This document shows, one piece after another, positions 11,506 through 47,189 of a stretch of DNA of 64,000 bases (the first letter of the stretch is position 1; every line of letters starts with the position of its first letter). The notes beneath the pieces were generated by a model. The model did not search any database. It was not told the origin of the DNA and saw only the letters and a program-made list of their open reading frames with translations. This stretch comes from Rhytidiadelphus loreus (lineage: Eukaryota; Streptophyta; Bryopsida; Hypnales; Hylocomiaceae), in contig OX344761.1 of NCBI GenBank assembly GCA_947034895.1, forward strand, positions 78,057,839 through 78,121,838, written 5' to 3'. Both the position numbers and the translations under genes were made by a program.

Positions 11506-14500
11506 TTACTTGTCACCATCCTTCTCCACCACCTGTTGGTCCTGTTCTTCGTTCATCGCAGTTGGCTCCTCCCGTCTCAACTGTTCACCCATTTGCTTTC
11601 GAAGCTCAGCAAGTTGGTAATCCTTTTTCTGCAACTCTCTTTGCAGATTGTACACCTGCGAGAGAAAAAACGTGCAATCAGATGAAGATTGAAAATACTT
11701 GTAAGGTGACTGTTTCAGGCACTCGAGGCTATATTCTCAGATCTCAATATATTGAGTCTAAATTTATCTTACTCTTCTTGACATTGCCGAGGGAAGCTGA
11801 GATTTACTAAACTATAAGTGGTCTGCGCTTTGCCATCTCTAGTGACATCTCACCCTCAGAATACTAAAAAAGTCTGAGGCATGAAGCATACGCTACTCAT
11901 GCAGCTGGAAGAATGACAGCTGGTGATAAAAATTAAGAGTGATCAGATACTCACCGTTTGTTGTGATCGTTCCAACTCGTAGTTCACTTCCTCAACAGTC
12001 TCGTATAATTCTGCCATGGCCCCAGCAGAGATAAAAGAATCAATTCACATGATGAAGTTACTCTTCAATCAGTCCCATGACTTGGAGAGGATTTCATACT
12101 GCGTGAGAGGGGTGCCGTGAAAGCTAAGGAGTACATTCCAAGCCATCAAAGTACGCTAAACAATTCGAATTGCAAGCAAGTGGTGTATCTAACCTGTATA
12201 ACAGCGTCTAAGTTCTGCATTTACAGATTTCTGCACTGCGAGCCGCGTTCCTAATTCATGAACCTGCCACAACCATACAACTTAATAAGCAGGGGCTCAC
12301 TGAGGAAAGCTAAACCCATCAACACAAGCAACCGATTATACAAATACAACACCACAGATGCAAAGTTGATCAAGATCCTCTCCTTTCAACCTAATCGAGA
12401 CAAAATGCATTGCAGTTGGAAAAGAGGATAGTCTAGAGTCATAACGGCAATCCTCCCCTGCATTCTCAGAGAGCTCTAGATTTGACAGTACTAAATTAAT
12501 CAAAGGAGAGGGTTATGTCCGATAACCATCTGGCTCCTTCTGATCCTCAACTGGTTCTTCACTACATAACAAGCAGGGGTTCAATCGATCATAGGTAACG
12601 TAGTTTTGACTGACCTTTCCTTCTGAAGCCTCACGGCCTATTTCAGTGTTCTCTTCCTGTAGCGTGCGACACTTTGCCATCAAAAGCTTCCCATGCTTGC
12701 TATGGGGGGTGAACTGCACAGCTGCAAGGTCGTCTTGCAGCTCTTTCACCTTTTTCTCAGCAGCTTCAAGTTCTTTCTGTGAGCAAGTAATCACTCTTAT
12801 AAGTTCATCTCAAACGATCCCGCTATCCGATTCACAAAGTTATAAATGGTAAGTTAATATTAATCTATAGTTCATATACAATCAAGTCCATGCTAATGAG
12901 ACTAACATCACACAAAACCTAACACGAACTTAACAGCGTTTTTCACTACACTAACATTAACTCAACATGAGGATTAGACGAATCTAAGGCCTATCAACTT
13001 AACAGTAAGATCTTCATCAATCTCATGTGTGTGGGTAGGGGGGGGGGGGGGGGGGCTTCTGTGATGTTACTCATGATGGGTTCTCATGGTGCGTCATTTG
13101 AGGGCATTCCGTAGTAAGTCGCAATAAAGCAACAATATCAAGTCAAGTAAGAAAGAAATATTGGAAATTACCTTCATGCGTGTGAATTCGGCATGAATAG
13201 CTGGATCCAACAACAATCGTCGAGTCTGGATAGGTCCATCGTTAGTGCTTGTCATGCTCATTTTAAGGATTGAGTAAAAGTCCGCAGAACTAGATATTAT
13301 CCATGGCCCAACGGAAGCGACGCGATCAAATCCACCATTTGACATTCATTCATTAAAAGCAAAGGTGCATTTTGCGGCATTGAGGTTCTTGGCAAAAAAC
13401 AATAATTTCATCCTCAGCTAACCTGTTGCATCGAGGGTTTTGACATCAGCTTCAAGTCATGGACGGTGCTCTGAACATAAGCCCCACACACGATACAGTC
13501 AGAAACTCAGGAGAAATTACTAACAAAACACAAAGTAAGCTCAAAAATCAAGCCGTAAATGCAAAATTTCTAAAGCCTTACCTTCAAATCCACGACCTCC
13601 TGCTCTGTATTAGCGAGTTTCACGACAATCACGCCTTCCCTTCGTTTAGCAGTCAAGAGCTACACAAAGCATGTAAATGTCAACGCTTTGGCAATCAGAG
13701 AATGAACTACACCAAACACATTGGGTGTTGAATAGCAGTGGGTGAAAAAATCAATGCGGTCCCCAACAATATGTCCGAGGACGTACGCTACTCTGCAGCC
13801 TCCAAGGTGGTCCGAAACGACACATTACACTCTTAAAATATATGTTACAGTGATCTCTCGTAATTACCATGATCCACAGAATACTGCGTATTCAGTGTAC
13901 AATCCTTGACACATACTACCACCTACACACTAGACTGCACGAAGAAAAGGGTGTGCCTAAATTAGAAATGAGCTTCCAGCTTCAGAAATACATATCCAAT
14001 AAGGAAATACATGATCGCAATTAGACCTGATCTTTCAATTGACTCTCTGAGGCCTGAAGCTTTTGCATTGCCTGCACAACCACCGCAGGATCTGAATACA
14101 TAGCAATCAGGCCAGAAGTCAGACTTAGCAGGAGTGGTTTACAGTTAACTTTAGAGCTCTACAACCTCCCGCTTCCGATGATTGCATAAGAAATTCATAC
14201 AGTAATAGAAACTTGATCTCAACTGATTTGGTTCTGTACCCAAACTAATCTCTCCACGGCTCTATACATCTCCGAAAAATCACACCCACATGTTAAAAGT
14301 GATGCAATTAGTAACCTCTACTTTATCATCTACTCCCAGGATCCAAATAAGGTATTCTTGTTTGAAGAAACCAAAGCCAATTGAGTGGAATAATACCAGT
14401 GACTCCAGGGGGTAGAAGGGAGTCATTCGCGAAACCACTGGTCCACTTCTCCACCTCTGCATTTGCAGCATCAAGAGACGCCTGCAGAGGTATTCAAATC

Positions 14501-16061
14501 CATGTTTATTTAAAGGTTCACAACGCGAGATTGTGAATGCACAACCGATATACATCCACAATCGGCTTCGCACTCACAAACTCTGGCAGGGAAGAACATG
14601 AAACTTAGACGAACAATTAAATGCGGATTGTGCTGTCACCTTCAAAGAGGCAATTGTGCTGTCACGATCCTCCAAGCTGGAATAACCCAATAAGACTTGG
14701 TTAGTCACGATTGTGTGCTCTACTTAAAGAGGACACATCAAAATACGATTAACCACAAAATCTCACTAGAAATTCTGTTCTAAATTAGCCAAAAGGAGAA
14801 CAGGGAACCGCCAGAAATTGCAAGTGGCCAACTGAAAGGTCTAAAGCAAGCCAGAATGAAGGCCCAATGCAAATCCAATGAGATATTTGAGCTTGTTACA
14901 TGTCGATCAAGTCACAAGTAAGAAAAGTCGTATACCTGGACCGTAGGTTGAGGATGGTTGTAGTAGCATGGTCACTAGATGGCCCATGAGAAGCATATAT
15001 CTGTTCGCAACCACAGAGGAAATCAGTCCTAACTGTAAAAAACAAAGATTCTTCAACACTGAAAACAAGGAGCCATTGTTGTTTAGCTTCGGTTAGACTA
15101 CAAATCAAATGCAACTCAAATCACAAAATGCGTTGGGATTTTTTTTCTAAGGATGTGATCGTAGTGATCAAACCTTCTTCGTAGGATATAATTCCTCTTC
15201 ATCATCATCAAGATCTGCGAATTCTCGCTTCACCCCTGGGAACACAAGAAAACCAAAATTAAGAGCAGTTTGAATGAAAGTCAGAAGATAGGAAACTATA
15301 TTTCATCGAGATACACTTTGTTTCTATTTTTGTGGGTGACTGAACTATGTAGCTTCAACAAACAATTTTCCTTGTTGGTTGCACAAATTTGCATGATGAA
15401 GCATTTATTTAAAGAGTCTACCAACGCTTTTTTGGCCTACTTCCAATCACGAGTACCTTTCATCAAGCTACTTCTTAAAAATACAGAATAGGGAAAAGCC
15501 AAAGTGAGGCTCACCTGTCAGAGCAGTTTCTCCACCCGCTTCCCCATCAAAGTCGAATACCTCCTGCAATGCAACAAAAGATAATCCACACACTAAGATT
15601 GACACCAGATCAACCAGGAAAAAATAAAAAATAAATTCCTGCCTTCAACTAACTACTACGCAATCAAAAAAGAGCAATTGGAAGACCTCAGAAACACATC
15701 CAAAGCCCTAAACCACTCTCACACTTCCCACCCCAACTTGCTAATTTATCATACTTTTCTCCAAAATGTCTCAAAATGTCTCAAAATGAGCTTGGTAATT
15801 AACTCATTTACAATCGAGGAATATCGTCTCTTCCCGAAATGAGTATCAATGTCAAATTCCAAAATGCACAGGCGAAACCCTAAAACCAAAATTGCGGAAA
15901 CATGGAACGAAAGAGTAGGATTGTAAAAGGAGGATTAACTTAGTTGGAGACCATTTGAAGCATTGTGATTACGAACACAGAAAAAACAAGCAGGGTTGAA
16001 AGAAATGCGATTGTGCACTTACATCGTCAGCGAAAGCAGCGGCCGTCTTGGGCGACGCCAT
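11506..16061 (-). CDS. FIP37: FIP37 / WTAP homologue, m6A writer complex subunit
   Basis: Fourteen exons, all phases consistent: 16023-16061, 15515-15563, 15174-15235, 14936-15000, 14640-14676, 14397-14481, 14027-14091, 13582-13659, 13423-13470, 13172-13225, 12615-12776, 12194-12263, 11955-12010, 11506-11655. They give 339 residues, close to Arabidopsis FIP37 (330). FIP37/WTAP is a nuclear coiled-coil scaffold that holds the MTA/MTB methyltransferases for N6-adenosine methylation of mRNA. Diagnostic motifs: acidic MASPKTAAAF lead, TTTILNLRSSLEDRD, DPAVVVQAMQKLQASESQLK, TRRLLLDPAIHAEF (177-190), LAAVQFTPHSK and LLMAKCRTLQEEN (225-237). The C-terminal coiled coil (VHELGTRLAVQKS, LYETVEEVNYELERSQ) ends in EKDGDK and TAA. 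It is the canonical reference for the two chimeras at 33-47 kb. Intron 10 contains an 18-base G run on the plus strand. Confidence 0.95.
13038..13055 (+). repeat. Homopolymer run of 18 G in FIP37 intron
   Basis: Uninterrupted G run on the plus strand, which is a C run in the FIP37 pre-mRNA. It lies in the intron between exons 10 and 11. Confidence 0.95.
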
Positions 16062-19000
16062 AGCCGAGCAATTGAAGAATTTTTACACAATTTTGCGATC
16101 AAGGGGATTCAAATGAAGAGTACGGGGGAGTAGTTCGCAAATGCGAGTCTCGCAGTTTGCATTCGCACTTCAAACTAAGTTCTCTTCATTCGAACTTCAA
16201 TTTCGAGGGACCAAATCTTACACCTAAAACCGTGAAAACAACTAATTTAGCATAGATGGAGGCACCTTTTTCTTGAAAATATTTTTATAGTATTAGCAAT
16301 TTTCAAAAAATAAATTAGAATCTTTGGGTAAGACATGTAATTTCTATAAAATTTCAAAGTAGAACTCCCTACACCACTAAAATCATCACATAGCTTGATA
16401 CAAAAACTGAAATTTAAAGAAATCAACAATCGACCAATCCTAGTTAACCTGTGAACGTCGACATGGACGTCAAATGTGCGATGGATGACAAGGAATCTTG
16501 AAGTGTAGGACGAAAGTGCAACTATTCATCTTTGGAATTGGGTTTCGAAAGGAAAGATCTCCTATACTACTTTGACTTCCAATAGGTGCTTTTGCTATTT
16601 TTTTTACCAATGATTCACACGGTAATACAAAGGATGATTTTGAGCATCACCCCTTCAACGTTCAAGGGTTAAATATGGGAACGGTGTAATGATACTTTGG
16701 GGGACATGATTTGATGAAAGTCTACTTATTAAGAGTGGATGTAGGAATGACTATGCACCCAGAAGATGTGAACACCTTGTTTGCATCTTCAATTTATCCC
16801 CCTCTCCTCCTTGAAAAAATCCAAAGGTGTTGATCTTTCATCAAAACTCCCCCACTCCTAAAAGCCGTTGATCCTTTGAAAAATTGAGAACTATTGCTAT
16901 TTGTCAAATGAATGATTTTAGCCATCCAAAACAAATACAAAATATGGATACAAAATATGACCGTAGAATATGGTACAGAATGCAAAGGCAATTACAAAAT
17001 TAGACTAAAATATTCCATATCAAATGCATTGTGCGGGAGAGGTGGAGGAGGGATTCCAAATATTATATGTGTAAATTTAATTGAAAATTGGCATTATCTC
17101 ACTATGAACCTAGAAATGCAATTGGATGATTTTGGATGTTTTCACCTTTGTTGACAAACTTCTAAAACTGCATAGAAACAAAGTTAATTAAAAAAAAAAA
17201 TGCATGTGTCAATTTTTTCATTCAATAAAAATATTTAAACAAATTACCTCAACAACTACCCTATGCTTGGATCGGATTTGTTAAAAAATAATTCAATATG
17301 GAATGTAATAAAATTTTCAGAATTTATAACGTGGCATAAATTTATTAGTGTAGAAATGTCAATGAAAATAATTTGAATCCTCAAAAAAAAATTATGAAAA
17401 ACAAAAAATGAAAAAAAGATGCATATACCAAATAGGCCATGATTGAGTATTGAATTAAAGTTATGAAGACCCTATTGCAAAACATCAAGATATTACCAAA
17501 TAAGATATGAATATCATAGTAAAACTATAAGGCCCTTGCTCCAAAACATCATGATAGATTCAACAAAGCCTTAAGAACTGCAATAAAGTTGTGACGACTA
17601 GTGAGGACTTTGTTGCTAAATGTCACAAAATATTCTAAATCTTGTGAAACAAAATTCCAAAAATCCTAAATCTAATTAACAAAAGGAAATTCAACCAAAA
17701 AAGAAATAATTTTGTATGGGATTTAACAAATATGACCTCAACTTACGGTACTTTATTTATAGTTCACCTTCTCCCACACTATACAATAATCTCCTCTAAA
17801 AGTGCCCATCTCTTTGAAATGGACCCTATAATTAAATTTCAAAATGGATATGAGGTGGTTCTAAAATCAACATAAGATAAACAATGAATGGACTAAGGAT
17901 AAAATGGGAACATTAAAGTTTGTTAGATAAACATACTTCAACCATAAGGCAATACCTAAAAGACCTTAATGCGCTCCCACATTATCATCATAGTAAAGTG
18001 AGAGTGCATAAAAGTACTTAGTTCCATTTTCAAAAATAGTGACAAGTGGACATTCATATATTTAAATTGAAAGTTGGCAAGCCAACTACTTCATTATAGA
18101 AGATGCAAAATCTATTAATTAAATTGACACAAATATGGGCCAAAATTAGAAAATAAAAGAACACATTTAGGACCCTTGCTTGTTATTTATTGCAAGTCCC
18201 AATACTTCTTCTTAGTTTTCCCATCTCTCTTTATAGGTTGCATACACAAATACTTTTCTAGACCTACTATCATAAATAGGTGTCTAGGATAAAAATCTTT
18301 GAAAGTTCATAAGTAATTCAATAATTATTGGAAAAATATGAAACCACTTGTGTTACATGTTGCATCTATTAATCTATTTCTCTTTATTTGAAAAAGGAGC
18401 CAAAAATCTTCCAGTTCATAGAAAACCATGAAAAGGCAGACTAGCCCTTAAACAATTACTTTTAGAGCACACTAATTTATATACTCTAGAAATTTTAGGA
18501 CATAATCATCAACACTCATTGCTAGCAACTTATTGTCAATCAAAATTCAATGTATTGCATACTGGAAAATTTTAATTTGGAAGGGATGCATGGTGCTTAG
18601 AGTTTGTTTTTAAAAAAGAATCTTTAAGAGAGGGGTAACCTTGAAAACACACTCACACCATCGGGGATGCTAGTATGTGAGCCTAAGAGTGTGAGCTTGT
18701 AAGCCTCTTAATTTCTTTTTTCTATTTAAAAAAATTATAAATCCATTGGAGACCTATGACCATAGAATTAGATGAAAGGATCTATAGTCCGACAAAATAT
18801 GCTACTAATGATTTTGTACCAAAACATTGAACCATGGGCCTTTATATAAATTTAAAGGGTGAAAATGGTTCACCTATTTTATTTTATTTTTTTAACTATG
18901 CTTTAAATTTTTTAGAAATATCTTGAACATACAAAATATAAAATGAACGTAGTAGATATATATTATACACCAAATAAATGTATTAACCCTTAATATTCTA

Positions 19001-20900: not shown

Positions 20901-20929
20901 GTAGTCTTGAAAACCCTAGTTGTTAGTGT

Positions 20930-25289: not shown

Positions 25290-25627
25290 CCAAGGTACTA
25301 TTATTGAATGATGTGTTTTGGTATTTTCATTATATAAATGTAAAAGTTACTTTAGGATATATTTTTAGAATTCTTTTTTTAACTTTTTTTTAAATGTAAA
25401 AGATTTTGACATACTCTATAAATAAATAACGTAATAGACAAAATCATTAATTATATAATAATCAACAATTTTATTCTTCAATATATTATATTCAATTGGC
25501 ATTTTTTGCAAACATATTCAAAATTATTTTTTGTCATCTAGCTAACCATTAGATTCAGTACATAAAATTACCTCATTGAAAGTCTCATCTTGACTTGTCA
25601 TCATTGAATCATTGCTTATCAAGAAAA

Positions 25628-25885: not shown

Positions 25886-26285
25886 GAAATCATTTATAAT
25901 TATGAGACAATTCTATGGTAGTAGCTATTTGGACCTAAATATTGAAAAGTATTTTCTTTACACATGATAAATTCAAGAAATGTTCTTCTAAATCCAAATT
26001 GACAACATTTAGTGAGAAGACTAACATTTTGTTTCTTGAACAATTTGTTCAATTTGTTTTTGATTTGTAACATGGAATGTAAATTCTTGAAAGAATATTT
26101 GACACTTTCACAAATTCAATATTTTTGGAATATTTTTAAAGCTTTTTAATGGTACAAAGTTTATTCACACAAGATATTTCTTTTCTATTCCACAATTTTC
26201 AAATCAATCTTAGTCTTTCAATTGAATTACACATTCATTTGAATGACTACAAAGGACCTAGTAGTGTTGGTATTTGGTACTTTTA

Positions 26286-28749: not shown

Positions 28750-30180
28750 CTATAGCATGAGCTCTGATAGCCAAGGATGTTGTAATGCCTGTGATGAACT
28801 GAGCTGTTTGTCAGTGAGCTTCCTTATAAAGTCTTCAGCACGTGTTGTCCTTGCACCAGGAAGATCCGCATCCAGGAGTTTGCCAATACTATACATGTCT
28901 GAAAAGGGCGTATACTGGTTGCCTTCAAACATCTCCGGATCCCAGCCTGAGAAAGGCTTAAATCCATCAAACAATGTGAAAGGAGAATCTGCTACAGATT
29001 CAAGGTCGATGAGCATGAAATTCGTCTCTGTAAGGCACACAATATTCGGGAGTCGGATATTCCTGTGCACCAGGCCCTCACTGTAAGGATACACAGGGCT
29101 TGGCAGATACGTTGAGCCATCCACCTGCAATCCTCTGCATTTGTATCCAAGAGGACCAAACTCAACTTTGTAGGATCCATGAGTAGTTTCGATAGGCTCT
29201 GCCATTGTCTACGGCAGAAACTTACATGTTTTTGCAGCAATATAAGCCTTCTTTATCACAGTAATATCTGTCCTCTGCTCAGCACTATAACTAGAAAAGT
29301 CTCTAATGTGCTTCGCCATTTTGTTAGCATAAAAATAAATTCTCCTCCTTCGATCCGGTGACTCTTCCATAGAAAACATGGCGCGGCGACCTAGGACTGC
29401 CAAGATAGTGTCATGCATTTTTGTCAATAGTTGGAAGGCATAGCCTAAGCTGAGTAAAAAAAGGCAGCGATCAGAAAGATTCAATAGGTGAAGAGTTCGA
29501 CCTACTCGATATAGCTCCTTCGGACCATTCTTGCCGATGTACATCCACTGAAATTCAGTGCCTGCTGCTACATAGCCTAGCATAAATTTCAACTCCCCAT
29601 AAAACATTGGATTAAGCAGCCTCATCTTAGAACGAAGATCACCTTCAGCAGCATGCAAGTTGCCAACCCTGTCTTCACCTACTAGGAAGGTGCATCCAGA
29701 GGCTATGGCAATCGTATCAAGCCTCTTCCTGAGTTCAGTAGGATTGAACGAATGCGTGACCTCAAAAAGGCCCACATATAGCTTAAAAAGGTCAAAGAAT
29801 AAATTCAAGTTGCTTGCAACGAGGATTGTTGTTTGTATCTCGTTGACTATCACCCCAGGTTGGTGCATGAGGAAGGTTCCTATAGTAGAAGGAAGTCTTG
29901 AACCATCTGCCTCGATTAAAAATTTCGCCGCCAACTCGGGCATCCCTACTGCTACATTCCATTAGGCTTGCTTCGTTACAAGAAGCTTTCGATATTGCTC
30001 AGGGAACAATACCTTTTCAAGGCCGGCATTATTTTTGGGTAGCTCAGATAGCTGTGGAAGCAGCATGTGCCTAATCCAAGCTTCAGAATGATCATTAGTC
30101 TCACCTGCTTGAGATGTATCACAAACAACAGCAACAAAATGACTCAGAATAAAAATAGTGGATGCAAGGACAGTAATCAT
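28750..30180 (-). pseudogene. Kinase-like gene with two in-frame stops
   Basis: One continuous reading frame on the minus strand is cut by TAA (29962-29964) and TAG (29209-29211) into segments of 72, 244 and 151 codons. The last segment is a protein-kinase C-lobe: LVHRNIRLPNIV replaces HRDxxxxN, LIDLES stands at the DFG position, FSDMYSIGKLL matches the subdomain IX pattern, and QALQHPWL is a subdomain XI end. No normal glycine loop or catalytic lysine is visible, and the HRD aspartate is Asn, so catalysis is doubtful. The middle segment (YVAAGTEFQWMYIGKNG and around) is conserved-looking but unassigned. Introns removing either stop would have to be only about 30 bp, so I favour a pseudogene. 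A candidate upstream exon is 30688-30958. Confidence 0.55.
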
Positions 30181-30958: not shown

Positions 30959-31000
30959 CTGCATTGCGAAACCTGCATCCACGTCGAAGTTAGCACCCAA

Positions 31001-33154: not shown

Positions 33155-36100
33155 TTATTTAGAAACGGTGAGTTTCAAGTTGTCAATAAGGGGGTCCATG
33201 TGTGCATCCATCTTATCTAACAGTGAACAACTAGGTTTCGCCATTTGAAGCACAATATTTTCAGTACTAGCCTGCACAATTTTTGTTAACGAACCAAATA
33301 TACTGTCGCCATTCTCCAGCTCTCTCTCTTCTTCGTAAGGGACTAAAGAATCTTCAGCAAGGTCAGGTTTACTAACATCAGGGTCACTCCTAGTACTTGC
33401 CGTGTTGTTATTGTTGTTGTTGTTGTTGCTGCTGCAGTTGTTGTGTCTACCATTGCTGTTGAGCAACCATTGATCCAAGAGTCCATGATGCTTGCAGCTA
33501 TGACGCTCCTCTCCTGAAGCGTCCATGGCATGCAGGTCTTTCTTGTATTGTCGAACCAGAGTGTTAAATTTCCGCTTGCAAGCAATAGGCGACCTTGAGA
33601 ATCCTGGATAGAGTGATGACATACGAGACCGCAACTTTGACCACATATTGCCTCCTGCAGTAGAATAACACCCATGTACCATAACAACATTAGAGAGAAG
33701 TGCCAGAGATTCGTTGTTTCAAAAGACATTCTCATTTGAATCTGATGTTGTCACATTATTGAGCAACTTGCCAAGGATATCTTACGAAGCAAGAATATAG
33801 ACCCCAGGGAGGAATATAGGGCCTCTAGGCCTCCTCTATTGCACGCTTCTCAACCAATCAATCAATTGCAAAATCTCAGATTCAAGTAGTTTGCAAGTAA
33901 ATAGGAAAATCATAACCCTCTCGTGCCACTTTTATCACTATATGAATGCAGTGCAGTTGGAAAAGCAGACGGACTAGTGTCATAACCCTTGTCTTTCACG
34001 CATTCCCAAAGAGCCAAGATTTGATGATCCTGAAATAGTCTAGAGGCGAGGGTTATGTCTGATAACCGTCTCAAGCGTTCCTGTCCCAGCCCTTGACTGG
34101 TTATCTAACACATATCCCTCCAGTGACTGCGGTGGCGAAGGGACAGAAGATGGCCTTCAAGATTGCTAGGGTAGAACAGGTATTAAAGATTTGCAAAGGA
34201 TCTGAAACACGTACCTTGCTTTTTCCAGTTCTTCACGAATTCAGCATCCATCTCTCTACGTAATGCAATTAACGTTTCCACTTCACTGTCAGCCCAATTC
34301 TTCTTGCTTTCCTCCCCTTCTTCATCATCTTCTTCCCCAATAAACTGGTCAGCGGCATCCTCCATGTATTCCGAGTGATTGCCGAGTGACTCAGACTCAT
34401 GTAGACTTGCAGTGACATGTTTCATTACCGTTCCATTCGTGTGCCACCAGCGATCCAGGAGATCGTAAAACTTGTAAGAGTGATGATCCCTTCCAAACTC
34501 TTTCAGATCAAGTACGTCTTTCTTGTGTTGCTTAATCAATGCGTTGAATTTTCGTTGGCAAGCTAGACTTGACCGTGTGAAGCCAGGAATCAATGACATC
34601 ATGCGAATCTGCAACTTCGACCACATGTCCTCACCTGCAATGAAATGTCCATCAACTGATCATGACGCTTGCATTGCCAAAAATTAGATCTTGAAAGAAA
34701 TGCTCCGGCCTAGCCCATAAATTTCTTCAGGGAAATGTAAATCAAGATCACAAAAAGCAGCAAATTGTCACAGGATAACATAACAATCTCGAGAAGATAC
34801 CTGAACATCCTTGGGAACCGAATCTAGATTCTATTTCTGTACAATTTTGAGCTTATGGGAAGAAGGACAAGCATTGACCTACTGACTGAGCACTATGCAT
34901 GCTATCAACAGTGAGTGTCCAGGTTTGGAGTCATCTATTATATACTTTTTAGTATACGGAGAAGGGTGAATTTCTCATCACTGCTTAAGAAATGTTATGC
35001 AAAGAAGGGGTAAGCATAAAGAGGAAACAGAGAGGAAAGCTGTTATATCAAAAAAAGGACACTCACATTCTATCACCAAAAGGAATCACTCTTGACAACG
35101 CACCTGGTTTGTAAGCATTCTCCACAAATTCAAGCTCCATCTCCCAGCGTAGCGAAACCATAGTCTCCACCTCACTATCCAACCAATTCTTTTTGGCTTC
35201 TTCTCCTTCTTCATCTTCTTTGACCCTTACACTATGCTCTGTGTTTCCACGAAGATGTGCAGCATCACCATCAAAGCGATTCATGTTGTTTGACTTCGTA
35301 GTGGCAAATTTCATGATTGTCCCATTGGTGTGCCACCACCGATCCAGGCTGTCAAAGAACTTACGTGCATGACGATCCCAAGTGTGATGTTTCCCTTCTT
35401 TTACTTCAAGTATATCTTTCTTGTGTTGCTTGATCAACGAATTAAATTTCCGTTGGCAAGCTAGACCAGACCGCGAAAATCCTGGAATGGCTGATGACAT
35501 TCGGGCTTGCAGCTGTGCCCACATATCTACCCCTGCAACGCATGCACGACCATTAGCAAACTAAGAAAACTCATCTTGATTGACAATTCTTCATAAGCAC
35601 AACTCGTTCAGATTCATATCTCTTAAGACATCAATTCGGAAATTAGCGAGAGTAACGTCTCAAAACTTTGACACTAGAGGAGACATGTGCTTGATATGAC
35701 ACCCCACCCATTCATTATATGAACAGTGTTACTATTCCTCTAAACCACTGTTCTACTCGAAAGTTGACACCATTCACCAAACAATGATTCGATGCTTACA
35801 TGACACAGATTTTGAAAGTTTGTCTAACGTACAACTTAGGGCCATTGTTCATACGAACATGTTTAAAGATGAGAACTGCTCTCGTATTTCTGTTTAATGA
35901 GGTTTTTCCAGACTAAAGGAAACCTATCCTTCCAAAGACACGGAAGTACACACCTTGTTTATATGCATTTTTCAGAAAGTCGGGTTCCATCTCCCAACGG
36001 AGTGAAATCAAAGCCTCGACTTCACTGTCCATCCAATTCTTCTTGCCTTCCTCCCCTTCCTCCTCTTCCTTGGCGACCATGAACTTCCTTGGTCTTCCCA

Positions 36101-39100
36101 CCTTCTTCTTTGAATTTGAAGGCGGAGCACTTATCAATCGCAGTCCATCCTCATCCTGCTATCAAAACATACATGCTCTGGTGAAACTGCTCTTTGTATG
36201 AACCTCGTACTCCACTCTTCTACAAAAATTAGTGCCATCCATCATTCATTCAGAGATCCTATTAAGCCCAAAAGGACCAAGAAATTCAAAGTTTAAAGTG
36301 GCAAGTTGGATTGATCGTATTGTGACGAGTACCATTCAGATGGAGAACATTGCATGTAGGTATGATCAAAGAATTAACTGAAATCGAACAAAAAAATGTC
36401 CCCAAATGACCTTCTCAAAACTGCTAAAAAAGAACATGGTCCTTTAGGTTTAAGACACAAAGAATGACACTGACCTTGCCTTCCGATGCTTCACAACCAG
36501 CACCCAAATTCTCCGCCGAAACAGCAGAACACTCTGCATCCATATCTCTGTCGTGCATGACCTGTTGTCTCATTTGCACAGAGGCCATACTGTCTGGAAG
36601 CTCCGTTGTAATCTTTTCTGCAGGTTCAAGTTCTTTCTGTGGGATGCATGTGAGAATTCATGAAGCCAAAATTCACAGTACTTCACAGAAAATTCCATAA
36701 CACATGTGATACAAATGCAGAAGGCTCCTACCACTGACTGAATTGAGACTCTGTGTCGTCAAGGAGGATGAATTTAGAGAATAAGGAAACATATTCAAAT
36801 TTTTGTGCACTCCACATGACATTCCTGAACAATGTAACAAGAGTCCATCCAACCCCAAGACTATAGACCCAAAGTATCCTCGACTCATTTTTAAGAAAAT
36901 TTGTTGTTGGGCCTTTGGCTTTTGACCATTCCTTTTGTCATTGAAACTTGGCTTAAGAAAATCCCAAGAATAAAAGAGGAATCCCTAAGAACATAGGGAC
37001 CTTGTAACACTGTTCAAGAATGATATGCAAAGTTTGCGCTCTTGGACATTTACCTTCCAACGCGAGATTTCGTCAAAATTCGATGGCTTTGGTAACAGTG
37101 GTCTTGCCTGAAAGAAGTTGACAATTCGTGATGACCATCAAAATCAAATACTGAAAAATTCTACCTCTTTATTCAGTAAAGGAGGTATTACTACAGTCAA
37201 ACTAGGTGTTTTTTTATTCCAATTTAGAGTACACACTGCTCAAATCATTGAGCTGTGATGAATTCGAAAACATAAAATTAAGCTCCGCAAAGAACAACAC
37301 TAACCATTGACGGCAGTGACCGCTTGGACAGCCGCTTCAAACTACGTACAGTACTCTGCACGCAGATCCCCACCAAGAAATAAGGAACCGAGGCTTTCCT
37401 TGCAACTTGAGAACTCTTGATAAAAGAGTTTATTACTCAGAAAATTCAGAACTTACGTCAGATCCCACAAAAGAAAGAACTCACTTCATCTAACAGCAAA
37501 ATGCTGGTGTTCATTAACCGCTATTTTTGTCCAATTAATTTAATTTTGACCAATATATGCAATGCTCTTTATTGCTTCTGATGACAAAAAATTTGGTCGC
37601 ATCTGAATTATGTTTTCAAAATATGATCAATCAAATTGGTCATTTTAGAACCATAAATACTTGATCTTTTGGGGATTAAAACAATAGAAATTTGGTGTAC
37701 CTTCAGCCCCAAAATCTCTTGCTCTGAGTTGGCAAGGTTGAAAAGCATCACGCCCTCCCTCTTCCTTGCAGTCAGTAGCTGCAAATTCGGGCATATGAAA
37801 GTTTTAGGAAACCAGAGAATTGCTATGTCGAAACTGGCGAAAATAAAAGTAGAGAATGTAAATCAAAAGACGAACCTGCTCTTGCAGCTGAACCTCTGAT
37901 GATTGAAGCTTCTGTATCGCCTGTACAACCACTGTAGGATCTGAAGACGGAATTGTTAACATTCGGGAACAAGTTGCAGCATCAACAAGAGCACTCTAGA
38001 TCTCAAAATGTCGATCAACACCGTTCCAAAGCTCAATTTCTATGGGACTAAGAAGGTATTCAAATTCTAGCCAGACGATAATGAATGAGAACAACCTCAA
38101 TAAGTGGTATGTACTACTGGCGCTTAGCTAAGTGGGAGTGTTTGGAGTTAAGTTACTTCATAATAATTTACTTAACTACGAGTCTATGGATTCTGAGGCA
38201 GTCATAAGACCAAAAGAGTAAGTCCCAACATATTCTACGGCATGTAGAAAGAGGCACCTAGGTAGTATATTAGTCGCTCGGTGGGTGAAAGAGATACACT
38301 TGTGAAACAAGTACGTATCTCTCCTCTATGGTTGGGTGTCGAGTTACACTGCCTTAATACATTTCAGCATGGTATCAAATGCCATACATTTTGAAGAAAA
38401 TAAAGTCCATTCTAAAACATTTTGACTATACCCTAGGCAATAAAATCTTAGTGGTGTTTATGGAGCAACTTCAAGGTCCTAGCTCCTCAAGACAAGTACA
38501 TGGTGGTTGTCACAAATCAGTCAGCATTCTTAAAGATGGCGAGCGACACTATCCTTGAAAAACGTAAACTTAAACCCACAACGTCCATACCTGGATCAAT
38601 ACCAGGGGGGAGAATGGAGTGAGTGATGAATGCGTGTTTCCACCTTCTGAGTTCCTCATTTGCATCAATGAGGGCTGTCTGTGACGAAAGATTGAACGTA
38701 AAATCAGAGGTAAATAACAAATTGAATGGAAAAAAATGTGGACAATCATTTGCAAAGTACAAGCGTTGCACAAAATTCATATTGATGAACAGCAACTAAG
38801 AAAGATCAATGCTTAATAGCTATTTAGATTTTGAGAAACTCACAGAATAAGTAGCAAAACAATGACAACTCACAGAAGAAAGTTGGTACCTTCAAAGCAG
38901 CATTAGTGATGTCACGTTCTTCAGAGCTGCAAATTCAACAAGTAGTATGGTGGATTCATTTCGTCCAAACAAGAACAAGATCCAACTTTACCCTTCTGTT
39001 TACTGTATATGCAGGGGTCAGAAGTTCAATCCTGCAAGAGTACCTGTACTGCGGATTCATTGTTATGGTGATGCCGTGCGCACTGTCAAGACCGACACTG

Positions 39101-40898
39101 GCTTTTATCTGGAACAAAGTATAAGAAAAGATGAACATTAATGAGAGGCTGAGGAATATGGCCTGTCAGTGAAGCTTCCAGCTCCAAGAATACTTGCAAA
39201 ATCAGAAGCACCCGAAAACAATATCAACATTCGTTTGGTTGACGTACTATAGTCGCAGGGATTGAAAGCATTCTATCAGTGAGTCACTTAATTTGGACTC
39301 TTTTTCAAGATACCGTTACCTTTTTGGTGGGACTGGAATCCTCTTCCGCGTGATCCATGTCCGAGATATCCCTCTTGACACCTGTCAAAAAAAACATGAA
39401 CATAAACTCTTGATCCCTTTAACACTGACGTCGTCAGTATTAGTCCCTACTGTATCCCGTTGTCAAGACACTAAAGTTTCAATCATCCTACACAAAACTT
39501 ACTTCGTTATCTGGACTTTCTTTTCCCATGAAAAGAAATATCTAAGGCAGAATTATGGTGAAACTTACGAACCAATTTCACCTGCTCTACAATTCTCATT
39601 ACAAAAACTGCAAACCTCCCCTCTCTCTTTAAGAGCTTTGCAGAGCAAAGACAACACTATTGCCAACTCTAGTTTCTATACCTTAACTTTACATCAAATG
39701 CATTGCTGAGGAAAAAGAAATATGGTCTAAATTACTGAGATATTTTATGCACGCTGAGAATACCTACCTGCCAAGCTCTTTTCCATAGCTGTAATATCGT
39801 GACAGCCACATGATTCCTGCACGGTACAGACATTCTCTCAGAACAGTGGGATGAAAAAAGATTAATGTCAGCTGAGACGCATACTCTGCATTGCGCCTTG
39901 CTCTTGCAGAAAGAGAAAGATCAGAAAAAACGTGTTACCGTTGATGTTGCAACAAAATTACAGGGTGTTATCACAGTAATCGTCTTGAAACTTGGATTTT
40001 CCATGAAATCAATCAAAAAGATAATGCATTCTAGGGCTTACACCAAGAGGAGGACCAGGTGACCCCACGGGAAAACAATGCATGTTCACCCACCTGGTGA
40101 ACACAATACGACCTCAATCACATTCTACAAGCTCCGTCACTTGCTTGAACACAAATTTCAATCCAAACTTTTCTTAAGCTACACTAAATCCATGAGGTCC
40201 TCCTCCAGGTGTAAACCCCTAAAACACATTGCATTCAACAAGCTCTTTCGATTCCTCGGACACACACTTCAATCAAAACTCTGCATTATTCCAATAAGAA
40301 TAACACCTAATTAGTGTTTCCAATCGCACGTTAACCAATTAGAATTGCACATTTTATACCACCTTGATGTTTTGTGATCAACCAATTAACACTTAAGAAA
40401 GAGCAAACCAAAAAAACTATTTCAATAACCTAAAAGCCAAGAAAAAAATTCCACGATCAAAATTTCGAAATCAGACTCTCTTCCAGATTTCAAAATCATT
40501 GAGATCCATCAACATTCTTGATTTTCACCGCTACAACTGCCCGCATTGCAAATCTTTCTCTCTCTACTCAATCGATATCATCGAAGACGGATCCTCAATA
40601 CTCAACATCACGTAATGTAACCAAAAATCATCCGATCGAAAACCACTGCAAATTATAAAGATATCAAACAACAAAGCTTAAACTTAAACGCTCGGATTGC
40701 CGATCAATGCTCACGTTCCTCTCCTTCTCGCAACCCTAGAATGAATACGAAATAACAACGAAGAGCGAGATTGATCTTCAACAAAAGCAAAAGTCTACAA
40801 CAAAATGAGGCAAGCACAGCTTTTGCATTTTTGGCAACAAAAGTTCAAAAAGGTGGCTTACGAACCGCAACGACAAAGGGCTGATCCGGCGACGTCAT
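33155..40898 (-). CDS. FIP37-like N-terminus fused to three trihelix domains
   Basis: Fifteen exons in one consistent frame: 40866-40898, 39768-39816, 39320-39381, 39044-39108, 38890-38926, 38591-38678, 37876-37940, 37701-37778, 37305-37355, 37054-37107, 36475-36636, 35954-36155, 35104-35532, 34215-34634, 33155-33654; 764 residues. Exons 1-11 match FIP37 exons 1-11 in order and phase, with equal or nearly equal lengths, and sum to the same 744 nt. The sequence is diverged: PAIHAEF became KPSNFDE and the MAKCRTLQEEN block is lost. Exon 12 adds an AT-hook-like VGRPRKF (267-273). Three trihelix (GT-type, Myb/SANT-like) domains follow, about 288-384, 426-525 and 570-665. Each has KKNWxDSEVExL, MWxxLxxRM, PGF(S/T)RSxxAC(Q/K)RKFN and a WW(H) end or its remnant. 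A poly-Asn stretch lies in the last exon. Predicted nuclear DNA-binding protein. A two-gene model is possible but less parsimonious. Confidence 0.8.
33950..34115. repeat. Intronic block shared with canonical FIP37 intron 11
   Basis: This block in intron 14 of the trihelix chimera matches 12410-12565 in intron 11 of canonical FIP37. Shared pieces in order: GCAGTTGGAAAAG, CTAG(A/T)GTCATAAC, GAGGGTTATGTC(C/T)GATAACC, GACTGGTT or CAACTGGTT. It is either a common ancestral intron or a dispersed repeat. Confidence 0.6.
37500..37660. repeat. AT-rich MITE-like core in chimera intron
   Basis: Lies in the intron between exons 8 and 9 of the trihelix chimera. It resembles the interior of the Stowaway-like element at 47930 (TTATTGCTTCTGATGA and TTTTCAAAATATG phrases). 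Termini are not clear. Confidence 0.35.
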
Positions 40899-41302
40899 GG
40901 TTACGAACACAGCCACGATTGTTTGGTGTCGGTGAGCTAACATCAGATTTGCTGCTGGGGCGCTGAAACTCTTGCCCCCCCCCCAACTCGTGAACCGCAG
41001 CTGCGTCTAATCGCGTCTGCGGCCGTCTAGCTGCGTCGAAGGCGAAGAGCGTCAACTGCACAGAGAGACTTAGTACACTGCCAGTTTGATCAAATGCCCA
41101 CGTCAGATTATAACTGGTTACAGACAATAACAGGATGACATGTGTCACTTTGGGGGGGATAACAATCAATTAAAATAATCCGAATCTGACGGGTCCATTC
41201 GGCAACAGGAGGAGACGGTGCCTGGGGAGCAATGCAACCTCGATCGTTCTGCAAATTTTTGAAGCAAGTGCACTGAAGAGGAAATCCTTCAATTGCTCGG
41301 CT
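40899..41302. promoter_or_regulatory. Shared head-to-head promoter of the two FIP37 chimeras
   Basis: 404 bp separate the ATG of the FIP37-trihelix gene (minus, 40898) from the ATG of the FIP37-B3 gene (plus, 41303). It must hold both leaders and at least part of both promoters. The leader before 41303 (TTCAATTGCTCGGCT, then ATGG) is nearly identical to the leader of canonical FIP37 at 16062, so the B3 chimera inherited FIP37 5' sequence. Confidence 0.65.
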
Positions 41303-44300
41303 ATGGCGTCGCCCAAGACTGCCGCTGCTTTTGCTGCCGGTGTAAGTGCCCAATTGTGTCTCTTTCTAAACTTGATGTGTGTTCGGGTTTTGCGCTCTTG
41401 TGCGCAATCGCAATGCTTGAAATGGACTCCAATTGTTATGAATCAAGAATTTTTCCGACTTCCTTCTTTTGTTAGGGTTTTCCCCTGGGCATTTGGATAT
41501 TGAACCTTGAATTTCATTTTCGGGAAGAGTCGCCGTTTTTCAAATTTTTCACGGTTTCATGAACAGGAAGAGTGAAATTCCTACTGCATTTTGAAACAGT
41601 AATGGTATATCAACAAGATCGGGTATACGCTTCCATGGTGAGAGAGTAGTTTAGGACTTTTGAGTTCCAATTAGATCTTCAAATTACTCTGTTCCAGATT
41701 GTTTGTAAGCTAAAATACATGAGGATTTTTTTCCTGAATGATCTGGTGATATTTTAGTGTGTGAATTGATGTTTTTGTTGTATTGTAGGCGATGTTGGGA
41801 TTTAATGGGGAAGCAGATGGCGAGACTGCTCTGACAGGTGAACCATGGTGCTTTGTGATTGTAATAATTTGGCTTCGTGTCATTCAAATTTTCATGAAAC
41901 ACTAGATTGTTGGTGAATGTGCATTTGTTGTATTGCATAATTTGGTTTCGTATTCTTACATTTGGTTATTGGAGTCTCTTTATCCGACGTTGGTTACTCT
42001 AATAACACTAGTAGAGAACAGTGCCCAAATCAGCATGTTTTGTTGCTTCGGACGGCTTGATTCAGACATAAATTAACTGAGATATGAGTTGATTCGGGCA
42101 TATATTAACTGAGTTATGAGTTGATTCGGACATGTTTTGTTACTTCGGACAGCTTGATTCGGACACTGTTTTCTATGAGAACGAGAGCATGTTTTTTGAG
42201 TTGACTCTCTTGTGCTGCAGGGGTGAAGCGAGAATTTACAAACCTTGATGAGGATGACGAGGGACTACATCTTGCGCAGAAGGTTGATCACGATGATTTT
42301 AGATGATTTTTCAGAACACATATTTGTGGATTGAGCTGCATTTGATTTTCATTGCTTATCCAAAATTCTACAACTGTAGCAGGTAGTGATCATTTTGCAT
42401 TCCATCTAGAACAGGATTTCCGGTAAATTAGATTGTTGCATGTTTCACGGGGAGACTTTCATATGGTCACTATGAACCATGGCGAAGATCTCTTTATGAT
42501 GTTGTCTAAATTTTCTTGAAACAGTCTAATTTTAATGAAGACATTGTTCTAGTATAAATGCAACTGAGTTTGCGAAGCATTCAATTTGGATATGCTTGAC
42601 ACCTTCCTTGGTTGCTAACAGATATGTGCATCTCGTGAGCTCCCCAGTGACCATGCTACCAACACCATCTTTAACCTACGGTCCAGGTATACGCTATCTC
42701 CATCCTTCCAGTTGGTATGATAATGCATTCCGAACTCTGAGACTCCACTGTTTTGTTCTCCTCCTGGCCGTTGGTGGAAAACGAAATTCAATGAGGTTTT
42801 ATAGTCTTTTCATATGATGAAGTGTCTGTTGTGAAGTCATGGCTAACCAAGTCTAATTTGATTATTTCAGCTTGAAAGATCGTGACCACACTATATCTGC
42901 TTTGAAGGTACTAATCCACATTCACTTGTGCGTCCAAGTCTCGTGGTTCCCAGTGAGAGTTTGTGAGTGTGAAATCCTAGAAGTGGATATGCATCAGTTA
43001 TGCAATCTCACGTTTTGATTCTGTCATTATAAACTTGGATTTGAAATACCTATACAGGCGTCTCTTGATGCTACAAAGGGAGAGCTAGAGAAGTGGACGA
43101 GCGGTTTCTCGAATGACTCCCTTCGTCATCCTGGAGCCTCTCCTGGTATTGTTCCACTCAATTGACGTTGAAGTCTTCCAAGCAGAATCACTGTATTCAT
43201 CTGGAGTCTTGATGTAGAGAGTCGTGTCAACCACTCTTTACCTGCGTTGTCTGTCATTGATAATCCAGTTTTCTTTGGACTTCTATAATTCTCTCGCGTT
43301 TTGTTGGCAAAGTAGGGATGCAGAGAAGCGTTATTTGGTGGTTTACATTTTTTATTTACATTTTATCTTTCGTTTGTACTTTTTATTGCGGTAGGAGACT
43401 AGTCTGTACTACAGAGGATCTCGAGCAGGAAACCTGGTGTACTTTTGGGTTTCTTCCTCCAGACCCAATACCTTGAAGACCCTGCAAATTAAGGTCTCTG
43501 ATCCTGGCTGTTAGGTGCTCTGCAATAACTCTCATAATTCACAAACCCTATGGAGTGGAGAAAGTAGAGCGAGTAAGGTTTGTGAGAAGGCAGGAACGTC
43601 CTCTAGGTTGTGCAGGCTGTCCTGCTTGGGATCTAATTAAAAGGATACAAAAAGAGGTTTCCTAGAGGTTGATCATTGATCATTGATCCTTGATTTTTAT
43701 AAATACACTGGGTTCCTCTATACTTTAGGTTGGACTTTGTCGCGTTTCATAGCCTATAGAATGCCGGGTCTGTAAGGAGGATCCTCTACACCACTCCTGT
43801 CTCCTGGTAGGAAAGGATGCCCGTTTCAAATGCTGAAGACATGAATTTATTGTCACTCTACTCAGTCTCATTATTTGATTGATTGCTTTGTATTCAGATC
43901 CTGCAGTGGCTGTGCAGGCACTGCAAAAGCTTCGGACCTCAGAGAGTCAATTGAAAGAGCAGGTCAGGTTACAATCTTGTGTGCGCCTCACTGAACCTTA
44001 CCTTTATTGTTTTTCTGTTGCTGTAGATTCGCTTCTTTTTTTATGACCATTTTGTTTGTTATGTTGTCAAGGATATCTCGTGCTCTGTTATATCACTGTT
44101 GGTTGCCAAAGTTTTGACATTCGAAACGCTTGTGTAGCTTTTGACTGCAAAACGAAGGGAAGGCCATCTATTCATGACACTTGCTACTACAGAGCAAGAG
44201 GTTGCGGATTTGAAGGTAAAATTTTTAGACATTTCACTTTCTCTGTTGTTGGATCCTCCTATTTATATTGAATTGCAAGCTATGTTTTCAATATTCATCG

Positions 44301-47189
44301 CTTCCCGACTTGCAATTTTCTTCTGTACTGTAATTTATTTACTTCAATTCCGCCTTAATTATCATCCTCCGTCAACGACCATGAGTAATTGACTTGAATG
44401 GCCACGTTCCCACAGAAAAAACTTCAAGCTGCTGAAAATAGGGTGAAGCTCCTAACAGCACCTTCGCCCTATTTTCAGCAGCAGGCATTCCAAGAAGAAA
44501 CAGATGCCGAGATGGCTGTACCAGACATATCCTACCCACCAACAGTCGTTCCACCTCCAATATCCCAACAGGTAAAAGTCAACCCAATGTATTTTCCCGC
44601 CCTTATTAGGTTCAACACATAATGAAAATGTCACGAATTTTTACTTCTTTCTATTTTGGATATTTATTAGCTTCAGTTTAACACGTTTTATGTGTTATTG
44701 TTTTTTCAGAAGATTTATATATTTTTGTCAGCGAAATCCTTTCTTATTCTTTTTTTATTCAAGTTTTTGTGCCAATTCTCACTCTGCAGACTATGCACCT
44801 GGAAGTGCACCCTAAGAATCTGGGGGGAGTAAGCCTACCTCCTCTGGAAGCTGTAAGGTCACAAGACATTTGGGAGGTGCGACCCCGGCGACCTCGGGAG
44901 CCAACCGAGGTTGAGAAACGGAGAGCAGCGGAGCGGGCCATCAATTTCCGGTCTTCCAACCCGTTTGTCATTGTGGCAATGAAACCGTCTCAAGTTTACA
45001 ATGGCTTCTCAGTTGTAAGTTATACCATCAAAGGCATTGTAAACTGGAAAGAGTGCAAGCTGGATACTACTCTAGAATGCTATGATCAGGTTATCGATGT
45101 TTGCGTTTTGTCTCTTCTAATACAATTTACTGGATAATTTCAAAGAGTGATTGCATTGGACTGATATCGTTCACCTCTCTGACTTATTGCAGAACCTGCG
45201 GTCAACTGCTCTTCCTACTGAGACAGGAGATGCGACTTTATTGGATTCCACAGGCAAATCGTGGATGTGCAAGTGGCTTGTGAATGGTTCTGGAAAGCGA
45301 CTAAGTGCCGGGTGGAAAAGATTTGCTCTGGAACATGAACTTGAAGAGAGTGATGTGCTTGTTTTCGAGGTGGTCAGTCGCGAGAATCTCACTCTGCTTG
45401 TCCATATCTTTCGAGTTGAACTGGACGATTCCACGGTGGGGCTCGAGGAGAAACTGCAATATTATGATGAAAGAGCGTCACCCAGCCGAAAGAAGAAAAG
45501 GATACGGCCAAGCCGAGCCAAAGCTGGGTGGCTATTTTTGGGACGTCCACCACCCAACCCACCCGAAGCTACTGACGTTCACAGGTCAGACCTTGTCAAC
45601 AATACTGATGGCTTTGACTTTCTTTGTTCAATAATGCTTTTATGTTCGATTTTTGCACGTGAACTGGTACACTGATTTGTCCTAATACTGTGTGTTACGA
45701 AATGAACTTACCTTTTACAAAAGAGGAATATTTTTACGCATTGTATGTGTATAGTGCTATTCATGTTGAAGAATCATCACCTGTATGATAGGTACAAATA
45801 TTCCTTCCTTGTAAAAAGTTATAACCATGTGTAAATTCATTTCGTAAATCACACTAATAGGGAAAATCAGTGTACTCTTTTCCAAGCTGGCAGCTCGTGG
45901 TTGAACATGGACTTGCGTTTTCAAACCGGTGAAGAGGTTGTGTTTAGGTGTTCAACACAGGCAACCCTTAATTTGCTGAGTTTTTTGTTTCCCGTTTGCA
46001 AAAGTGTTCTTCACTGTGTCTTCCAGTTCGGCTTACTTGCGTGTGTGACCTTGGTATGAGTACAGTGGATGCCAGTCTGTGAACGGGACTAATGTGGTGC
46101 CAAAGGCGTCAAGTCAGAGGACTTCAATTTCCGTATCTGATTTCCAGTACCCGGTTCCCCTACCACCAAGACGCCCTGTGACTATGGAGGAGCGGAGGAG
46201 GGCCGAACTAACCGCACGGACCCTGAAAACAACAAATCCCAGTGTAATGGTTGTCTTGACAAAATCAAGTGTGCAGTGCCACTTCTCTCTGGTACGGAGA
46301 CTTGTTCACATCTCTTGACTTGCTGTCATCGTTTCCTTATACCACTAATAGAAAAGACACCCCCAAAGGTGTTCTACAAATCCTAGTCACGTTATAATTG
46401 ATAGGACTCCCGTTAAAGTTTGCCTAAAATGGTGTTACAATTGATAGGACTTAAGGCGGCTTGGTTTTCTGGGAGGGGTGCTTTTCTACTATTTAACTTG
46501 ACAATTTTGAATTTGTCCATGGTCGAGATGTTGATCTTTGTTAAGCTTGAGTTAGCTCAACATCAGGAGTGAGTTGTTTGTCAGATTCTGTATCGTGGTA
46601 ATTGGGGCAATTAACTGGATTCTCGCCTTTGCAGACGATACCCAGTGCATTTGCCAAGCAGTGGCTTCCTAGGGCTCTTGTTGGCGTCACTCTCCGTGAC
46701 TCTGCAGGTCAGAATTCAACGGCACGCTGGGCCGGGAACCGAAAGAGTCCTTGTTTAAAAGGCTTTAAAGCGTTTGCACTCACTCATTATCTTGAAGAAG
46801 GAGATGTGTTGGTATTTGAGCTCACGGATTCGAATCAAGGGAACCCTGTCTTTGTAGTCCACGTTTTCCGTGTTGTGGAGTTATCCAACAGTGGATTTAC
46901 GTCCCAGGAATCTGACAAGGATGGGTGCCCGTTACTAACCGACTCTGAGAATGACAGTGACTCTTCCAAATCAAGGCAAAATGGGGAATTAAATATTGGT
47001 GAGGGTGCCTCCGCAACACCCAACCATGGCAAAGGATTTTGTGCTGATGTGCTGCCACTTGCAACAAGAATGCCCAAGACTGAGGTTTTTAATGAGTGTC
47101 CCGTATCAGGAGAAGCTGCAACACTTGACAAGCATTTTAAAACAGGGTCCCTGAGTCACCCACCGAAGGATGAGAAGTCACGCAAATGA
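41303..47189 (+). CDS. FIP37-like N-terminus fused to two B3 DNA-binding domains
   Basis: Thirteen exons, phases all consistent: 41303-41341, 41789-41837, 42221-42282, 42622-42686, 42871-42907, 43058-43145, 43898-43962, 44138-44215, 44416-44571, 44790-45014, 45193-45584, 46066-46291, 46635-47189; 678 residues. Exons 1-8 correspond to FIP37 exons 1-8 (MASPKTAAAF lead, FNGEADGETALTG, PAVAVQALQKL, LLTAKRREG). FIP37 exons 9 and 10 are missing. Exon 9 starts like FIP37 exon 11 (KKLQAAENRVK) and then diverges. B3 domain 1 is about 270-364 (NPFVIVAMKPS, SGKRLSAGWKRFALEHELEE, SDVLVFEV); a basic NLS-like RKKKRIRPSR follows. B3 domain 2 is about 476-585 (NPSVMVV, TIPSAFAKQWLPRAL, HYLEEGDVLVFEL). Each B3 is preceded by a basic RPxxxxExRRxAE stretch, as in REM/VRN1-group B3 proteins. 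Predicted nuclear transcription factor; partners of the coiled coil may include FIP37 or MTA/MTB. Confidence 0.85.
42034..42180 (+). repeat. Short tandem repeat in intron 2 of the FIP37-B3 gene
   Basis: CATGTTTTGTTGCTTCGGAC and its near copy lie 97 bp apart (42034 and 42131), with ATGAGTTGATTCGG repeated between them. Confidence 0.6.
44428..44482 (+). other. 21-bp inverted repeat at the FIP37/B3 junction
   Basis: The arms 44428-44448 and 44462-44482 are reverse complements with one mismatch; the loop is 13 nt. The left arm encodes AENRVK of the FIP37-like helix and the right arm encodes the first non-FIP37 residues (PYFQQ region). The new reading frame therefore begins with an inverted copy of the exon's own sequence. 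Confidence 0.85.

Follow-up and report, generated by a model that had tools for sequence, protein, structure and literature searches.

By splicing genomic DNA alone by eye, we rebuilt within 36 kb of the Rhytidiadelphus loreus genome an intact FIP37 gene and two complete genes derived from it, in which an N-terminal part of FIP37 is joined either to trihelix domains (the TRI chimera) or to B3 domains (the B3 chimera). We lean towards the view that DNA-binding proteins took over the N-terminal dimerisation part of FIP37, in which case TRI would act mainly as a dimeric transcription factor and any link to m6A would be indirect. The three-gene arrangement, with the chimera start codons head to head and 404 bp apart, had been described in the original prediction and was reproduced exactly, the outer coordinates 11506 and 47189 included. 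In the window (the whole stretch of 64,000 nucleotides analysed, located on contig C1) the following features were annotated:

11506 to 16061 (start 16061, stop 11506), minus strand: FIP37/WTAP gene, 14 exons, 339 aa, stop-free spliced model, all introns GT-AG
33155 to 40898, minus strand: TRI chimera, 15 exons, 764 aa, FIP37-derived exons 1-11 and three trihelix domains
33155 to 36155, minus strand: trihelix part of TRI, exons 12-15, with an AT-hook-like motif followed by three trihelix repeats
36475 to 40898, minus strand: FIP37-derived part of TRI, exons 1-11, in FIP37 phases
40899 to 41302: spacer separating the divergent ATGs of TRI and the B3 chimera, 404 bp, 51% GC
41303 to 47189, plus strand: B3 chimera, 13 exons, 678 aa
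41303 to 44215, plus strand: exons 1-8 of the B3 chimera, derived from FIP37 and identical to it at 111/160 residues
44416 to 44571, plus strand: junction exon 9 of the B3 chimera, in which the first part of FIP37 exon 11 is followed by B3-donor sequence
44790 to 47189, plus strand: exons 10-13 of the B3 chimera, B3-derived and encoding two B3 domains; identity to locus L022 on contig C3 290/445
45667 to 45875, strand not given: MITE-like element, 209 bp, with 45-nt terminal inverted repeats (84%), in putative intron 11 of the B3 chimera

In all three models every intron is GT-AG, the frames are open and the number of internal stops is zero; we are highly confident of these gene structures and of the TRI fusion. 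A search of the whole genome (407 Mb in 489 contigs) with the FIP37 protein gave 19 matches at E <= 10, all 19 of them within the window, and the Wtap family profile had one match genome-wide, which was FIP37 itself. Since the FIP37-like matches are confined to the window, the locus consists of one FIP37 gene and two derived genes. FIP37 scored 187 bits against Wtap (PF17098), while TRI (27.8 bits) and the B3 chimera (18.9 bits) were under the curated cut-off of 35 bits. The descent of both chimeras from FIP37 was instead established exon by exon, because exon order, phases and near-equal lengths agree (exons 1-11 in TRI, exons 1-8 in the B3 chimera) and the N-terminal sequences are 49% and 69% identical, respectively, over exons 1-8. 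The matches listed for FIP37, Wtap, the B3 donor, the trihelix part, the MITE-like element, an intron repeat and MT-A70 were all on contigs C1–C5. Rfam gave no match in positions 11000–48500 of the window, and the predicted RNA fold of the repeat in this region was no better than those of shuffles.

In TRI, exons 1–11 follow those of FIP37 in identical order and phase, their lengths being the same or off by 3 or 6 nt; 78/158 residues in exons 1–8 and 40/88 in exons 9–11 were identical to FIP37. The join lies in intron 11, in phase 0. A stretch of FIP37 intron 11 (12404–12531) was 75% identical to a stretch of TRI intron 14 (33945–34071). This match was considered as a relic of a shared intron, with the trihelix exons inserted into intron 11, and rejected, as it is a dispersed repeat with 11 matches on C1, C2, C4 and C5. 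Behind the join, TRI carries the motif KKKVGRPRKF, which by eye we take to be AT-hook-like, and three trihelix repeats, whose mutual similarity is 51–68% and which were recognised as such by Myb_DNA-bind_4 (106.7 bits, 8e-31, 3 stretches; cut-off 27). By eye they also show what is presumably the W/W/F core pattern of trihelix domains.

The trihelix part of TRI had at least 78 genome matches, four of them TRI's own exons, with 99 of 130 candidates scored. Its nearest paralogue, locus L035 on C4, was 49% and 57% identical across its two matches; this locus encodes an AT-hook-like motif resembling that of TRI, together with a single trihelix domain split between two exons (32.9 and 18.3 bits, cut-off 27), and the whole-genome FIP37 search gave no match there. 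As L035 shares both the AT-hook-like motif and the trihelix, TRI from exon 12 onward probably derives from the L035 gene family. TRI has three tandem domains behind a FIP37 N-terminus, whereas L035 has one.

Among 7995 scored candidates sharing most words with TRI, the nearest annotated protein was P0001 from Physcomitrium patens (783 aa, annotated as 'uncharacterized protein isoform X3'), which aligned with TRI over its full length (507/788 identical, 64%) and has the same fusion point. The presence of this join in P. patens indicates that the TRI fusion is old and conserved. Identity was 155/237 in the FIP37-derived part and 319/422 in the DNA-binding trihelix part, so both halves of TRI look constrained and maintained. 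The GRP core of the AT-hook-like motif is absent from P0001. In public databases this protein has no name and carries both domain types as precomputed assignments; PF17098 is among them, although our own score of 32.0 bits was under the cut-off of 35. The third trihelix repeat of P0001 matched the GT-1 structures 2jmw/2ebi, making GT-1 its solved relative, and from this homology we infer that TRI would bind DNA sequence-specifically.

The B3 chimera was built differently. Its introns 1 and 3–7 aligned to the FIP37 introns above shuffles (intron 7 slightly), while intron 2 did not, and the similarity indicates that this gene arose by DNA duplication and not via RNA. Exon 9 opens with FIP37 exon 11 sequence and then changes to that of the B3 gene, which places the join within an exon. 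It is flanked by a perfect 16-bp inverted repeat (44428-44443 and 44467-44482); when 1500 stretches of 156 nt were drawn at random from the window, 3 contained an inverted repeat of at least that length. FIP37 exons 9-10 were not recognisable in the 200-bp intron ahead of exon 9. The B3 profile (PF02362) identified the C-terminal part as a B3 protein (88.7 bits, 2.7e-25, 2 stretches; cut-off 30.1); by eye, the first of these domains lacks a few residues relative to the second, in the chimera as in L022. Exon 13 gave no match to solved structures.

Searched exon by exon, the donor-like gene L022 showed four B3 matches, of which three exceeded the Pfam cut-off and one fell short of it; the 1100-aa protein P0002, also with four B3 stretches, is laid out in the same way. 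The B3 part of the chimera corresponds to the second half of L022, i.e. the last two of its four B3 domains, with two shared exon joints and 65% identity; in place of the first two B3 domains the chimera has FIP37 exons 1-8 and the junction exon. A B3-type fusion was not found in other species among 7999 scored candidates sharing most words. A region-limited search for other FIP37-headed fusions also gave none among 1634 candidates; it missed P0001 as well, although P0001 is within its length limits and 62/151 identical to the N-terminus of the B3 chimera. The sensitivity of this search for distant fusions is therefore poor, and the non-detection of the B3 fusion elsewhere is weak evidence. 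Absence of the chimeras from sister species had been named as a finding against the original prediction: TRI passed, with P0001 in P. patens, and for the B3 chimera a counterpart was not found in these searches of limited sensitivity.

The end of the B3 chimera depends on one splice choice. An exon that is continuous in L022 (6701–7312) is interrupted in the chimera by 481 bp containing the MITE-like element, which belongs to a family dispersed genome-wide; scoring 40 of 135 candidates gave at least 71 matches, and since the ends are inverted a single copy often accounts for two of them. The matrix for scoring splice sites was built from 38 of the 39 introns in the three genes, leaving out the one in question. 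With donor 45584 (score 9.3), only one of the 11 scored acceptors, 46066 (7.9), gave the full frame, and acceptors 46027 (7.3) and 45961 (7.0) led to a stop after 425 and 424 aa. Both B3 domains were in one frame in 7 of 66 donor–acceptor pairs, the six further ones using the weaker donors 45594 and 45666 with the likewise weaker acceptors 46061, 46076 or 46118. The junction of exons 11 and 12 is thus a choice of the model. Given the competing acceptors near the MITE-like element, the second B3 domain may be made in only part of the transcripts.

The two fusions are of different age. Between FIP37 and TRI, dS was saturated (2.8, NG86), while between FIP37 and the B3 chimera dN and dS over exons 1–8 were 0.16 and 0.34 (NG86) or 0.17 and 0.30 (YN00), which makes TRI old and the B3 chimera younger. 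The B3 side gave larger values against its C3 relative L022 (dN 0.25, dS 0.74), and this larger dS suggests either an early departure of the B3 segment from the C3 gene, ahead of its joining a FIP37 copy, or a later conversion of that copy by FIP37. The breakpoints (intron 11 in TRI, inside an exon in the B3 chimera), the donors of the DNA-binding domains and the ages all differ, which bears out the proposal of two independent fusions beside an intact writer-type gene.

Over 439 ungapped columns of the B3 part aligned with P0002, we counted 92 changes in the chimera only, 16 in the donor-like gene only and 35 in P0002 only; all three differed in 43 columns and agreed in 253. In the 160 columns of the FIP37 part, 24 changes fell on the B3 chimera and 5 on FIP37, 20 were unassigned and 111 columns agreed. 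By these counts the B3 chimera is evolving faster than its relatives. Neutral simulation of its frame (678 codons) left 0 of 5000 runs stop-free, with a mean of 14.8 stops, or 9.0 with halved distances, means that are somewhat inflated as the simulated donor stretch had 1521 nt and the corresponding chimera part 1398 nt. For the FIP37 part alone 567 of 5000 runs were stop-free, so that an open frame there is not improbable under neutrality.

Two readings would deprive one or both chimeras of a role. The B3 chimera may be a by-product in decay: a FIP37 copy of recent origin that was spliced into fragments of a B3 gene and is losing function, with TRI as the sole working gene; its accelerated change, the MITE-like element within what is one exon in L022, the rival acceptors that lead to a stop and the failure to find it in other species with searches of limited reach all fit this. 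The open frame of 678 codons argues against it, as do the splice sites inherited from FIP37 and L022, which are still GT-AG, and dN/dS against L022 of 0.35 (exons 10–11) and 0.31 (exons 12–13), although pairwise values below 1 can also come from constraint on the parent alone. We regard decay as rather unlikely. Far less credible is that the fusions are artefacts of by-eye models drawn from genomic DNA only, with truncated FIP37 copies merely preceding separate trihelix and B3 genes, since P0001 is annotated as a single protein over the same join, the B3 join sits in one open exon and the frames of the models stay open across every join.

The possible functions were judged against the anatomy of human WTAP, with which FIP37 aligns without gaps (FIP37 123–317 to WTAP 54–248, offset 69, E 1e-34). 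In the available text of two studies, human WTAP is described as helices H1–H4, of which H3 and H4 are needed for binding METTL3/METTL14 (PMC9652331), and residues 1–149 form a dimer and 150–245 a tetramer (PMC13354555). The latter study further reports that the 150-245 coiled coil is required for tetramers and writer assembly, that tetramer-breaking changes abolish the interaction with METTL3, METTL14 and ZC3H13, that W30R in a 1–50 fragment yields a monomer with dimers abolished, and that purified WTAP binds METTL3/14 only together with VIRMA, which acts as a bridge (PMC13354555). Contacts with VIRMA are made by WTAP Q85 in H1 and R109 in the L1 linker (PMC9652331). The reading that we prefer carries these human helix roles over to the plant proteins as an assumption. 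FIP37 itself differs from the human residue at W145, K192, D206, F207 and K230.

A tryptophan occurs at a spacing comparable to that of WTAP W30 in FIP37 (W97), TRI (W95), the B3 chimera (W97) and P0001 (W99), an equivalence based on spacing, as the WTAP alignment begins at residue 54. Going by the aligned exons, both chimeras retain this N-terminal Trp region and H1, corresponding to the dimer half. The rest is much altered: H4 is absent from both, H3 is absent from the B3 chimera and degenerate in TRI, and H2 contains two prolines each in TRI and P0001. At both H3 positions with a METTL3-crosslinked lysine, another residue stands in TRI/P0001 (K to R/N and K to E/E). Judged by the H3/H4 coiled coil, with helix roles from human data, neither chimera qualifies as a writer subunit, and the original prediction of selection for tethering the m6A machinery was not upheld by this anatomy.

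The B3 chimera has no L1 linker; its H1 runs straight into the beginning of H2, and the heptad positions L-T-V-L-L-A-V-L continue unbroken over the junction. The best stretch by a simple heptad score reached 0.625 in TRI compared to 0.875 in FIP37; in TRI this peak lies in H2-H3, so the predicted score does not single out H1. A single-sequence fold of P0001 was unreliable (mean pLDDT 37), and its best blocks (57–70, at residues 81–140, mostly helical) lend weak support to a helical N-terminal module. Between TRI and P0001, identity was 54/77 in exons 6-8 (H1 region), 26/35 in exons 9-10 and 28/54 in exon 11 (H2-H3), compared with 118/152, 117/159 and 84/128 in the trihelix segments.

In our preferred reading, TRI, and the B3 chimera if it is expressed, would each dimerise via the retained N-terminal helix, with the conserved Trp (FIP37 W97), and H1, and would bind DNA through the trihelix or B3 domains. 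A chimera could also pair with FIP37, and such heterodimers would be likely because the interface is FIP37's own. On its own a chimera would probably be unable to carry the catalytic pair; an m6A link, if there is one, would come either from FIP37 or VIRILIZER acting as its partner where it binds a promoter, as a tether, or from poisoning of FIP37, as a brake. Our confidence in the dimer module is moderate and in any m6A role for the chimeras low.

The tether would have TRI, and perhaps the B3 chimera, recruit FIP37-VIRILIZER and hence the methyltransferase to chosen promoters, so that m6A is placed on nascent transcripts. As VIRMA was found in one study to bridge WTAP to METTL3/14, such recruitment through a partner could work without H3/H4 of the chimera's own. 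TRI keeps the equivalents of the VIRMA-contacting H1 Gln (Q85) and L1 Arg (R109), its L1-containing exons 9-10 are conserved about as well as the trihelix segments, and the genome has MT-A70 matches (seven at a single site on C3, with one more on C4 and a further two on C5). On the other hand, the METTL3/14-binding H3/H4 have been lost or have degenerated, Gln107 of L1 is replaced by Met in TRI and by Val in P0001, P0001 has His in place of H1 Gln85, and the B3 chimera is entirely without L1; VIR_N (PF15912) gave no match here nor in any control genome and is hence uninformative on absence. We consider the tether unlikely, and slightly more doubtful still that TRI is a moss adaptor tying promoter sequence to RNA methylation, in which the trihelix would pick the gene, the FIP37-derived half would bind FIP37 and VIRILIZER and the nascent transcript would be methylated, the B3 chimera being a younger version for other promoters. 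A dominant-negative brake, in which chimeras pair with FIP37 and the dimers, unable to tetramerise or bind MTA/MTB, lower or relocate writer activity, would account for both chimeras having kept, by independent events, the dimer half and lost the tetramer and catalytic-binding half, in line with the effect of tetramer disruption in WTAP. It leaves the twofold gain of DNA-binding domains, and their conservation in TRI, unexplained, and we find it quite improbable.

Chimera exons 1-11 or 1-8 thus come from the FIP37/WTAP/Fl(2)d scaffold. The DNA-binding parts resemble GT-1-type trihelix factors and multi-B3 factors such as L022 and P0002. In animals, the transcription factors CEBPZ and SMAD2/3 are described, in the available text of one article, as bringing the writer to chosen genes or transcripts (PMC8145807), which resembles the tether; there, factor and writer are separate proteins, whereas the chimeras are a fused scaffold fragment without the helices that bind the catalytic pair. 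In the available text of a plant m6A gene survey, P. patens is listed with PpFIP37-1 and -2, whose domain structures are called conserved, and a fusion is not mentioned (PMC6576107). We found no description of a fusion of FIP37/WTAP with a trihelix or B3 domain in the open-licence literature. The components are well known, and the architecture of FIP37 with a DNA-binding domain is apparently undescribed in the open-licence literature searched.

How the m6A writer chooses its transcripts is an open question. A conserved natural fusion of the writer scaffold's dimer half with DNA-binding domains lends itself directly to testing whether RNA methylation can be guided or blocked by DNA sequence. 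Gene targeting is routine in P. patens, and as this moss has the trihelix fusion, the test is practical. The locus itself also illustrates cleanly how copies of a single-copy gene have captured domains more than once.

The FIP37/B3 join, which lies within junction exon 9 of the B3 chimera, is surrounded exactly by a perfect inverted repeat, which makes it look as though a fold-back or template switch had created the join. Downstream of the join, a MITE-like element with copies dispersed across the genome has apparently become part of a new intron of the chimera.

Features around the FIP37-derived genes (window positions, except the last)
4131-5426, Ras-family GTPase, two exons, ordinary neighbour
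6957-7514, DUF538 protein, ordinary neighbour
12404-12531, dispersed repeat, copy in FIP37 intron 11
28750-29961, minus strand, open frames between FIP37 and the FIP37-trihelix chimera (TRI)
33945-34071, dispersed repeat, copy in TRI intron 14
44428-44482, 16-bp inverted repeat
45667-45875, MITE-like element, 45-nt terminal inverted repeats
53066-54025, F-box protein with KIB1-4 propeller, ordinary neighbour
C4:3094000-3100500, L035, trihelix gene

The repeat shared by the FIP37 and TRI introns gave 11 matches in a genome-wide search. The open frames between these genes are possibly a gene remnant; one gave a weak protein-kinase match (23 bits, under the cut-off) and the other gave none. For the trihelix part of TRI, tens of matches were found in the genome, many with stops within the matched stretch, and its nearest paralogue, L035, carries an AT-hook-like RKAGRPRK ahead of the trihelix domain.
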